Below the pieces are notes generated by a model. The model was not told the DNA's origin and did not search any database. It saw only the letters and a program-made list of their open reading frames with translations. Shown here piece after piece: positions 19,564-49,926 of a stretch of 64,000 nt of DNA. Numbering within the stretch: position 1 is the stretch's first letter; each line of letters opens with the position of its first letter. Made by a program: the position numbers and the translations under genes. The stretch is from contig DATKHY010000003.1 in NCBI GenBank assembly GCA_035544215.1, positions 568,501 to 632,500 of the forward strand, in the 5' to 3' direction. This stretch comes from Candidatus Binatia bacterium. GTDB lineage: Bacteria > Vulcanimicrobiota > Vulcanimicrobiia > Vulcanimicrobiales > Vulcanimicrobiaceae.

Positions 19564-19859
19564 CGAGCCCGTTCCACGATCTCGACTAGGCGCCAGCGCT
19601 TGTCACGCGAGAGCGGACGGCACTCCACGATGCGCACCAGGTCTCCCACGTTGGCCTCGTTGCGCTCGTCGTGCGCCTTGAAGCGCGCCGACTTGCGCAC
19701 TATCTTGCCATAAGCAGCGTGCGGCACGCGCGTCTCGGACACGACCACGATCGTCTTGTCCATCTTGTTCGAGGCGACGCGGCCCTGCTTCACGCGCCGC
19801 GTGCCGCGGGCTGACCCTTCGACTTCGCTCAGGACAGGCTCAGGACTAGGCTGCACCAT
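19560..19859 (-). CDS. rpsQ: 30S ribosomal protein S17 with repeat-encoded N-terminal extension
   Basis: The S17 core is complete from about residue 20 ([20 protein letters not shown]) to the end. The first 19 residues are not S17-like. Residues 8-15 read PVLSEVEG, which is the in-frame translation of a copy of the dispersed palindromic repeat (19815-19844). I chose the ATG at 19859 because GAGGGTGAGC precedes it; it overlaps the rpmC end by 14 bp. A GTG at 19793 (residue 23) could also start a normal-sized S17, leaving the repeat untranslated, but no good Shine-Dalgarno precedes it. S17 binds 16S rRNA early in assembly. Confidence 0.92.
19815..19844. repeat. palindromic repeat copy within the 5' end of rpsQ
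   Basis: The + strand reads CCCTTCGACTTCGCTCAGGA followed by CAGGCTCAGG, a short form of the dispersed repeat with a duplicated CTCAGGA arm. It begins just after the rpmC stop codon and is open in the rpsQ reading frame. Confidence 0.85.
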
Positions 19860-31404: not shown

Positions 31405-31440
31405 CGAAAAGGCCGGAAGCTTGCCGCCCCGGCCCTTTGA
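31405..31440 (-). terminator. intrinsic terminator of the tuf-rpsJ transcript
   Basis: On the minus strand a GGGCCGG-rich stem closes on CCGGCC (31411-31416 with 31429-31434), followed by TTTTCGTTTT. It lies about 45 bp after the rpsJ stop, so rpsJ is not normally cotranscribed with rplC 7 kb further on. Confidence 0.75.
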
Positions 31441-31474
31441 CTGCGGCGCTCGCGCGCCGCGCTCAGGATGACAA
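31433..31474. repeat. palindromic repeat copy D
   Basis: Arms CCCTTTGAC and GCTCAGGATGAC enclose a GCGGCGC-TCGC-GCGCCGC stem-loop. It sits between the rpsJ stop and the terminator hairpin. Confidence 0.85.
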
Positions 31475-38789: not shown

Positions 38790-38827
38790 CCACCCTGAGC
38801 GCGGCGCGGAGCGCCGCAGTCGAAGGA
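38790..38827. repeat. palindromic repeat copy F1 (inverted relative to F2)
   Basis: Reads CCCTGAGC - GCGGCGC-GGA-GCGCCGC - AGTCGAAGGA, i.e. the opposite orientation to F2. It is just upstream of the rpsL -35 box. Confidence 0.85.
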
Positions 38828-38885
38828 CGCAAAGGCGTCGCTTGCCTGGTTTGAGGTCGCGACAGGGGCCGCCCCGGGCGGCCCG

Positions 38886-38929
38886 CCCTTCGACTCCGCT
38901 CGGCTGTGCCTCGCTTCGCTCAGGATGAC
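38886..38929. repeat. palindromic repeat copy F2
   Basis: Reads CCCTTCGACTCCGCTCGGCT to GCTCAGGATGAC. It lies 27 bp before the acyltransferase start and 58 bp from F1, forming an inverted pair like a REPIN or BIME. Confidence 0.85.
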
Positions 38930-42692: not shown

Positions 42693-42714
42693 GACAGCGC
42701 CGCGCTCAGGATGA
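42693..42714. repeat. half palindromic repeat at the CoA-ligase stop
   Basis: GACAGCGCCGCGCTCAGGATGAC retains the stem remnant and the GCTCAGGATGAC arm. The complementary strand supplies the last codons and stop of the CoA ligase. Confidence 0.7.
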
Positions 42715-44310
42715 CAATTGGCGAAGTTTATAACGCTGCAGTTTCCCGGTTTCCGTGCGCGGGAGCGACGTTACGAACTCGATCTCGCGCGGCGCCTTGA
42801 ACGGCGCGATCTGCGTCTTGCAGAACTCGCGCAGCTCCTCCATTTTTGAATCGCCATCGGCGCACCCGTCCACGAGAACGACGAACGCCTTGACGTAATT
42901 CGTCTCTTTTTTCGGATCGCGCTTCGCGACGACCGCGACCTCCTTCACGTCGGCGTGCGCGACCAGCGCCTGTTCGACCTCGGGACCGGAGATGTTGTAG
43001 CCGGCCGATACGATCATGTCGTCGACGCGGGCGACGTACCAGAAGTAGCCGTCTGCGTCGCGGCGGTACGCGTCGCCTGGATAGTTCCAGCCGTTCTGCA
43101 CGTAGATCTCCTGGCGCTCGTCTTGCAGATACTTGCAACCCGTCGGCCCGCGCACCGCGAGGCGCCCGATCGTGCCGTCGGGCACGGGACGGCCGTTCTC
43201 GTCGTGAACCTCCGCGATGTAACCCGGTACCGCGCGCCCGGTCGACCCCGCGCGCACGTCGGACTCGGGCGAGCCGACGAAGATGTGCAACATCTCCGTG
43301 CTGCCGATGCCGTCGAGAATCTTCAGCCCCGTTTTCGCGCGCCATTCCTCCCACACGGCCTTGGGCAGCGTCTCCCCCGCGGACACGCAGCTGCGCAGCG
43401 TCGACACGTCGCGGTCCCCGAGCGCCCCCGCCATCGCCCGATAGGCGAGCGGCGCCGTGAATAGCGTCGTCACGCCGAACTCTTCGATCGCCGCGAGCAG
43501 CTCGCTCGGGCCGGCCTTTTCGAGCAGCAGCGTCGCGGCGCCGGCGTAGAGCGGAAAGAGCAGCTGCCCTCCAAGTCCGAACGTGAACCCGAGCGGTGGA
43601 CTGCCGCAGAACACGTCGTCGGCGCGCGGTTGGAGCACGCGCGCGCAGTACGTGTCGCAGATTGCCAGGACGTCGCGATGATAGTGCATCGCCGCCTTCG
43701 GCGTGCCCGTCGTCCCCGACGTGAACGCGATGAGCGCGACGTCTTCCGCGCTCGTCTCGACGATGTCGAAGCGCTCCGGCTTGCCGGCTGCGAGCCGCTC
43801 GAGCGAGGTCGCATCTCGGGCCGAGCCGCCGAAATACGCGATCGCAACGTCGCGGTAATGCTCGCACGCGCGCTCGAGCTCGTCGCGCAGGCGTAGATCA
43901 CAGAGCGCATGCTTGACCTGCGCCTTCTCCATCATAAAGCGCAGCTCGCCCGCGCGATAGAGCGGCATCGTCGTCACCGCCACGCCGCCGGCCTTGAGAA
44001 CGGCGAACCAGCACGCCGCCAGCATCGGGGTGTTTGGCGCGCGCAGCAATACTCGATTTCCCGGCTCAAGCGCAAGGCCGTCCACCAGCGCGTGCGCGAT
44101 GCGATTCGCGGTTTCCAACAGCCGGCCGTACGTCCACGGCTCGCCGCCGGGCGCGAGGATGCAGCGCCGCTCAGCGCCGACGGCTTCTACGCGGCGGTCG
44201 AGCAGAAAAGCGGCCGCGTTGAGCTTCTCCGGATAATCCAGCCCATCGAGGAGTAGCGCCGGCATCCGCTCGCGCGGCGGGAGCCGCTCCTCCGCGAAGC
44301 GGTCCCTCAT
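42706..44310 (-). CDS. aryl-CoA ligase, probable 2-aminobenzoate-CoA ligase
   Basis: The 534-residue enzyme has the adenylate-forming core: [40 protein letters not shown], and the C-terminal lysine segment [16 protein letters not shown]. The N-terminal [20 protein letters not shown] fits the benzoate/2-aminobenzoate-CoA ligase branch. The reaction would be aryl acid + ATP + CoA to aryl-CoA + AMP + PPi. Its start overlaps the acyl-CoA dehydrogenase stop by 4 bp. Substrate is inferred from the two-part cluster with the 2-aminobenzoyl-CoA monooxygenase/reductase-like gene. Its last three residues and stop come from a repeat. Confidence 0.72.
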
Positions 44311-49318: not shown

Positions 49319-49440
49319 GTCATCCTGAGCGAAGCGAGGCGTAGCCGATGTGTCATCCTGAGCGAAGCGAGGCGTAGCCGAGCGTAGTCGAAGGGCGGTG
49401 TAGCCACGCAGTCCTGAGCGAGCGGAGCGAGCCGAAGGAC
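49319..49440 (+). repeat. left repeat array of the GIY-YIG cassette (three copies)
   Basis: Three copies in the orientation GTCATCCTGAG to GAAGG: 49319-49349, 49352-49395 and 49407-49440. The second holds 36 bp (49352-49387) that are perfectly inverted at 49891-49926. The third is inverted, with 2-3 mismatches, at 49797-49829. Confidence 0.9.
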
Positions 49441-49493
49441 GGAATAGGGGCAGCAGGTAGTCAATCGAGCCGGTCTACGCAGAGTGGCGAAGG

Positions 49494-49784
49494 GTGAAAA
49501 GTTACTTCGTCTACATGCTGCTCTGTGCGGACCGCTCGTTCTACATTGGAATTACGAACGATCCTGACGTTCGAGTGCCTCAACACCAAGAGGGCCACGA
49601 TCCTCGCAGCTACACGTTCACGCGCCGTCCGGTAAAGCTCGTCCACTGCTCCGAGTTCCACGATGTCGCCGGCGCGATCGCCTGGGAAAAGCAGCTTAAG
49701 GGATGGTCGCGAGCCAAGAAAGTCGCGTTCATCAGCGGAAACTTTGCACTGGTACACGAGCTGGCAAAAAGAACGCAAAGGTAG
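49494..49784 (+). CDS. GIY-YIG nuclease family protein
   Basis: The 96-residue single-domain protein fits the GIY-YIG fold of the UPF0213/SLX1-like small group. FVY (5-7) and YIG (17-19) mark the first two strands, R27 in DVRVPQH is the catalytic Arg position, and E65 in AIAWEKQLKGWSRAKK is the likely metal-binding Glu. GIY-YIG enzymes cut DNA, often at specific or branched sites. It has a GTG start. It is flanked on both sides by inverted copies of the dispersed palindromic repeat, hinting that the repeat is its substrate or hallmark. Confidence 0.85.
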   Translation: MKSYFVYMLLCADRSFYIGITNDPDVRVPQHQEGHDPRSYTFTRRPVKLVHCSEFHDVAGAIAWEKQLKGWSRAKKVAFISGNFALVHELAKRTQR

Positions 49785-49796
49785 ATTCCTGCACCG

Positions 49797-49926
49797 CCCT
49801 CCGGCTCGCTGCGCTCGCTCAGGACTGCGAATCTCGCCCGTCCTTCGCCCTTCGACAACGGCGCTCCGCGCCGTGCTCAGGATGACATTACTACGCTCGG
49901 CTACGCCTCGCTTCGCTCAGGATGAC
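49797..49926 (-). repeat. right repeat array of the GIY-YIG cassette (three copies)
   Basis: Three copies in the opposite orientation to the left array: 49797-49829, 49848-49886 (stem ACGGCGC-TCC-GCGCCGT) and 49891-49926. The last is a perfect 36-bp inverse of 49352-49387. Confidence 0.9.

Follow-up and report, generated by a model that had tools for sequence, protein, structure and literature searches.

The window analysed in this study is a stretch of 64,000 nucleotides (C3:568501-632500) from a Candidatus Eremiobacterota genome (designated G000) of 3.23 Mb in 9 contigs. In this window, a gene for a predicted GIY-YIG nuclease lies between two arrays of one short repeat. These features, together with the copies of the repeat in the remainder of the window and the basis of each assignment, are as follows.

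31425..31472, - strand: outer repeat, solo (window repeat scan)
38791..38929, both strands (38791 +, 38927 -): inverted pair of the outer repeat, gene-less (window repeat scan)
42700..42715, - strand: outer repeat, solo, partial (window repeat scan)
49319..49348, + strand: outer repeat, left copy 1, truncated (direct match to left copy 2 over 32 nt)
49352..49398, + strand: outer repeat, left copy 2, GTCATCCTGAGCG...GTCGAAGGGCGG (36-nt inverted match to 49891-49926)
49407..49442, + strand: inner repeat, left, GCAGTCCTGAGCGAGCGGAGCGAGCCGAAGGACGG, without the GTCA tag (arm comparison)
49494..49784, + strand: predicted GIY-YIG nuclease gene, GTG start, 96 aa, under purifying selection (Pfam profile, residue conservation, dN/dS)
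49797..49831, - strand: inner repeat, right (arm comparison)
49845..49887, - strand: outer repeat, right copy, with a CGGCGCGGAGCGCCG hairpin at its centre (repeat comparison, folding)
49891..49926, - strand: outer repeat, outermost right copy (36-nt inverted match to left copy 2)

The first-pass annotation of this DNA had placed the gene between two three-copy arrays of opposite orientation, and this arrangement was borne out, with the three left copies all on the + strand and the three right copies all on the - strand. The outer arms (49352-49387 and 49891-49926), claimed to be a perfect 36-bp inverted repeat, showed 0 mismatches once reverse-complemented, and the inner arms (49407-49440 and 49797-49829) differed at three positions over 33 nt, as had been stated. 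Moreover, left copy 1 formed a perfect 30-nt inverted match with 49897-49926. The outer repeat of the window reads TGTCATCCTGAGCG...GTCGAAGGGCGG, and the inner repeat retains the TGAGC/CCGAA core. Further copies, said to be dispersed through the window, were indeed found at 38791(+)/38927(-), 42713(-) and 31470(-), and degenerate copies lay near 19834 and 2526.

The enzyme

In a Pfam profile search, the window protein matched PF01541 (GIY-YIG) with 55.6 bits against a cut-off of 22.6. When 21 diverse members of its clade were compared (A1), V6, Y7, G19, R27 and E65, all at positions expected in GIY-YIG catalysis, were invariant, and H31 was nearly invariant. The predicted GIY-YIG fold is settled by the Pfam match and these conserved catalytic residues, and the protein is a small stand-alone domain of this type. 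The dN/dS of the clade gene was 0.09-0.16 where dS was measurable. Among proteins of solved structure, the best relatives were the UPF0213/YhbQ-like proteins 1zg2 and 1ywl, whose fold matches the window protein by sequence. No match to the protein was found in PHROGs or PADLOC, and phage and plasmid homologues were weak and distant; a phage or defence family was accordingly rejected.

Association of the gene with the repeat

A protein search of 98 relatives separated a patchily distributed clade near the window protein (>50 bits) from a near-universal paralogue (~20-43 bits). Within the family, the clade gene was present in 31 genomes, a number that includes G000 itself and genes in split pieces, and the paralogue, a YhbQ-like housekeeping gene, was used as the control group. 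For loci with at least 200 bp on either side, the flanks were examined for the motif GTCANNN(C/T)GAG facing inward. The motif was found inward at both flanks of 23/25 clade genes and at 0/12 paralogue loci (Fisher p=5e-8), and the remaining two clade genes had it at one flank; unlike the clade gene, the paralogue is thus not flanked in this way. Inverted arms around clade genes also scored far above shuffles. Conservation of the flanking copies around orthologues had been set in advance as a test able to refute the proposed link, and the link held. Beyond the family, clade-type genes with flanks of the same kind were found in other families of the phylum, and a scan of a genome collection showed that 55/77 loci with flank data, mostly from Bacteroidota, were flanked as well. 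Plasmid-borne copies in Methylobacterium, Sphingomonas and Planktothrix also had flanks of this kind. On plasmid p1 of Planktothrix agardhii (L252), a related GIY-YIG gene flanked by TGTCATTCTGAG repeats has an MmeI-like type IIL restriction-modification gene on one side and the DISARM gene drmA on the other, and on Methylobacterium megaplasmids (L247, L253) GIY-YIG relatives carry CCTCATCCTGAGG...CCTCGAAGGAGG hairpins on their flanks.

The abundance of the repeat was assessed by counting GTCAYSCYGAGNND in family members outside the genus that were at least 90% complete; these were mostly single representatives of separate genera, and genomes were treated as independent. At least 60 copies were present in 14/14 genomes with the gene, compared with 1/18 genomes without it, in agreement with the earlier expectation that the repeat would not be equally common where the gene is lacking. 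The reversed pattern occurred at ~4 copies on average. Among the exceptions in the comparison of gene and abundance, G006 and G018 are incomplete assemblies. G045 had the gene and only 17 repeat copies, and two well-assembled genomes, G060 (152 copies) and the in-genus G008 (72 copies), had the paralogue only. Because clade genes lie in repeats, often at contig ends, draft genomes may lose the gene; it is just as possible that the repeats outlasted a lost gene. There are 1-2 copies of the gene itself and tens to hundreds of copies of the cognate repeat, which also stands beside the gene.

The sites compared for the gene copies of the genus all lie between convergent genes, and convergent intergenic space is a common place of REP-like repeats. 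It might thus be argued that the repeats merely gather in such spaces and that an ordinary GIY-YIG gene came to lie among them. However, chance neighbourhood was refuted by the paralogue control, in which 0/12 loci were flanked as opposed to 23/25 clade genes. The abundance association, the co-divergence described below and the similar arrangement in other phyla also speak against coincidence, to which we give practically no chance. The gene and the repeat are partners, not chance neighbours.

The architecture of the locus is also that of RAYT and REP elements, and RAYTs are present elsewhere in the phylum. A conventional RAYT or IS200-type Y1 transposase could accordingly be imagined to mobilise the repeats, with the GIY-YIG gene as a passenger. 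However, the PF01797 (Y1/RAYT) domain was absent from the window's genome and from all 31/31 genomes with the clade gene, in a search that detected it in 5/14 control genomes and in 21 relatives. With PF01797 absent, a RAYT/IS200 transposase as the mobiliser is refuted for this family, and we regard the passenger explanation as extremely improbable.

Co-divergence of repeat variants

Repeat variants were genome-specific and matched those beside the resident gene. The gene of G025 is flanked by GTCACGCTGAGC...GTCGAAGCG, and GTCACGCTGAGCYTGTCGAAGC, which flanks this genome's own gene, occurred in 57 copies in G025 and in at most 2 copies in each of 61 other genomes. Similarly, GTCAYSCCGAGTAG lies beside the gene of G041 and is abundant in that genome, and none of 62 other genomes had more than one copy of it (G041 being outside that set). 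In G025, the copies of GTCACGCTGAGCYTGTCGAAGC are arranged as inverted doublets that are uniform, ~75-120 nt long and held apart by a short spacer, and one such doublet adjoins the gene; uniform inverted doublets are termed REPIN in the RAYT field (PMC3116915).

A co-varying hairpin

The consensus of the repeat is GTCA-NNN-TGAG...TCGAA-N'N'N', in which the N triplets co-vary across phyla. When 109 loci from several phyla were compared, the triplets after GTCA and after TCGAA were complementary in 152/239 locus-distinct pairs, as against a mean of 24 and a maximum of 42 in the shuffle control, and 19 different complementary triplet types were seen among the co-varying pairs. Because this complementarity is far above that of shuffles, the stem has been kept by compensating change. 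TGAG opposite CGAA could continue the stem by pairing as T-A, tandem sheared G.A/A.G and G-C; tandem G.A pairs in a TGAG/CGAA context are stable in DNA. The description of the repeat as palindromic nonetheless needs qualification: the stem is seen as co-variation between genomes, whereas single window copies were predicted to fold no better than shuffled DNA. The argument for a stem therefore rests on co-variation and makes no use of stability. The co-varying hairpin probably defines the recognition site of the enzyme.

A co-varying stem located between convergent genes would also suit transcription terminators or mRNA stabilisers, and the nuclease might then trim hairpins in RNA or DNA. No Rfam match was found for the repeat, which led us to reject a structured-RNA family, and the folding of single copies is weak. 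Moreover, such a role would leave both the bracketing of the gene and the genome-specific variants unexplained, and we consider it very unlikely.

Repeat units elsewhere in the genome

Genome-wide, TCATCCTGAGCGNAG occurred 43 times in G000, compared with 0 occurrences of the reversed pattern, and the inner repeat was identical or near-identical at four loci (L035, L037, L039 and L042). A second GIY-YIG copy, on contig C6 (L035, 1921-2211), has the same ends and is a frameshifted pseudogene; at the orthologous site in G005 (L072), the GIY-YIG gene has an internal deletion. At L037, L039 and L040, the outer and inner ends are as at the gene-bearing unit, and only a short spacer separates them in place of the gene; L041 consists of tandem solo repeats. 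This range of units corresponds to an autonomous element accompanied by non-autonomous derivatives.

Three further observations were made in this genome. L042 and L039 are the ends of contigs C5 and C9; these contigs break inside near-identical gene-less copies, so that assembly gaps probably coincide with the element. At L038 (1100-1857; C7:1285099-1285856), a segment of ~0.76 kb with a hypothetical ORF of 192 aa on the - strand is bracketed by an inverted pair of the outer repeat, and the orthologous site in G009 and G016 is without the segment, which is possibly a cargo-carrying composite of the outer repeat. At L036 (C7:693116-693340), the end of the YhbQ-like paralogue adjoins a solo repeat, CTGTCCTGAGCGAGCGGAGCGAGTCGAAGGG, without the GTCA tag.

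Insertion polymorphism

When orthologous sites were compared between relatives, sites empty or reduced in some and filled in others were found; whether empty sites exist was a check proposed in the first-pass annotation. At the first site, the gene-bearing element is present in G003 and G010, a gene-less unit in G016 and a solo repeat in G014, and the site is empty in G007 and G015. At the second, the gene is present in G001 and G004 and, inverted, in G013; G011 has a gene-less array, G009 has the scar CTGTCATCAGGATGACAG, and G008 is empty. The array in G011 (L108, C1:2233280-2234450) is dense and mixes two variants, GTCATGC...GCATG and GTCATCC...GGATG. Occupancy also differed between relatives at S57, M37 and M40, as at the first site: M37 is filled in G000, and most of the relatives checked lack it or retain a short remnant resembling a scar, and M40 is occupied in G000 and G005 and vacant in G011. 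Presence or size also differed between relatives at five further sites of G000. Across the genus, the 15 gene copies were distributed over 8 sites, and at three sites occupied in more than one genome the orientations were opposite.

Inverted ends, gene-less derivatives and both filled and empty sites, features expected of an IS element or MITE with terminal inverted repeats, were thus found, and the filled as opposed to reduced or empty sites suggest movement. No clean target-site duplication was seen, and such a duplication was not definable because the nearest relatives are only ~85-90% identical at these sites. Given that short repeat-like scars remain at some near-empty sites, loss rather than gain is possible there, and gain and loss of units cannot always be distinguished.

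Discussion

The gene is bracketed by the repeat, repeat abundance and repeat variant both track the gene, units with and without the gene share their ends, and insertions are polymorphic. On this basis, we think it probable that the locus is a two-part unit in which a stand-alone, Ssn-type GIY-YIG nuclease is paired with its cognate GTCA-tagged imperfect hairpin repeat, and which would spread as an element.

Ssn, reportedly described by Chenal et al. in Nature Communications in 2025, is said to be a GIY-YIG site-specific single-stranded nuclease of Neisseria meningitidis, with homologues elsewhere, that acts on the repeat NTS/dRS3 and modulates natural transformation in Neisseria. The repeat dRS3 begins CGTCATTCC. 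As in that system, the window pair comprises a small stand-alone GIY-YIG enzyme and a short palindromic repeat that starts with a GTCA tag and is present many times in the genome. The window pair differs in that its hairpin is a co-varying triplet around a conserved TGAG/TCGAA pair, tandem inverted arrays enclose its gene, paired units without the gene and insertion polymorphism are seen, and its host belongs to Candidatus Eremiobacterota.

In RAYT/REP/REPIN systems, the enzyme is a Y1 tyrosine transposase and the REPs carry a GTAG tag (PMC2817692, PMC3116915, PMC3733652). The likeness to them is considerable: a low-copy gene is flanked by inverted, tagged hairpin repeats, repeat abundance is tied to the gene, and dispersed inverted pairs of uniform spacing, of the REPIN doublet type, are found (G025). 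However, the window enzyme is of another fold, the Y1 (HUH) domain that defines membership is absent, and the tag is (T/C)GTC instead of GTAG. The first-pass interpretation is thus partly supported: the RAYT/REP-like architecture with a nuclease of another fold is confirmed by the inverted flanks, the abundance link, the empty or reduced sites and the absence of a Y1 domain, whereas dispersal or processing of the repeat by the enzyme is a putative role. The first-pass annotation made no link to Ssn/NTS. Since the Ssn/NTS features open to comparison were found and RAYT/REP membership failed, the pair probably belongs to the Ssn/NTS kind, as judged from the reported features of Ssn.

The main rival to a spreading two-part unit is a policing role, in which an Ssn-type nuclease would modulate transformation or recombination by cutting single-stranded DNA, whether incoming or exposed, at the repeats, the repeats themselves multiplying by slippage, gene conversion or transfer. 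The role reported for Ssn in Neisseria, the persistence of repeats without the gene in G060 and G008, and the presence of 1-2 genes for tens to hundreds of repeats all speak for policing. On the other hand, units lacking the gene end on both sides as the gene-bearing unit does, each genome has repeat variants of its own that agree with those next to its gene, and the gene occupies many sites. An element with an autonomous form fits these common ends, matching variants and many gene sites more simply, and we judge policing to be rather unlikely.

If the two-part unit does spread, its repeat might become single-stranded at a replication fork, during conjugation or DNA uptake, or by cruciform extrusion. 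The enzyme would then recognise the tag and hairpin and nick one strand. When the host repaired or recombined the nicked segment between its bounding hairpins, a unit as a whole, be it the gene, an inverted pair or a single repeat, could be copied or lost, and likewise inverted or exchanged. In this scheme, the form with the gene would be the autonomous element, inverted pairs (REPIN-like or MITE-like) would be its non-autonomous derivatives, and solo repeats and short scars would be decay products. Both cleavage of the repeat by the enzyme and spreading, as opposed to mere cutting, are inferred here from sequence patterns. GIY-YIG enzymes cut DNA and are not known to join it.

The repeat also bears on the CGTC-tagged REP superfamily, which has the tag CGTC (often TGTC or CCTC), an A(T)-starting stem and head-to-head dimers, and which includes dRS3 (Di Nocera et al. 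2013, PMC3733652). The TGTCA/CGTCA tag and the co-varying stem found here, and the CCTC form in Methylobacterium, agree with this superfamily. In contrast to its four described families, which have an 8-9 bp stem and a 4-5 nt loop (PMC3733652), the stem here is interrupted by the conserved TGAG/TCGAA and has a long variable centre, and an 8-9 bp stem with a 4-5 nt loop and a CCA tail was not found. Among the papers covered by a literature search, which did not include that on Ssn, none connected GIY-YIG enzymes with REP-like repeats.

Di Nocera et al. did not find a dedicated transposase for CGTC-tagged REPs and left open which enzyme serves them (PMC3733652); the link between gene and repeat described here makes that question testable. 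Tentatively, and with more doubt than confidence, we propose that the dedicated enzymes so far lacking for the CGTC/TGTC-tagged REP superfamily may be supplied by this GIY-YIG clade. Nuclease and GTCA-tagged hairpins would then make up a class of mobile element that spreads in many phyla through single-strand nicking and host repair, with no DDE or HUH transposase. Across dozens of genera, the gene, the abundance of the repeat and its exact variant are tied together. Should the enzyme indeed spread its repeat, it would be an example of a mobile-element nuclease for which no joining activity is known.
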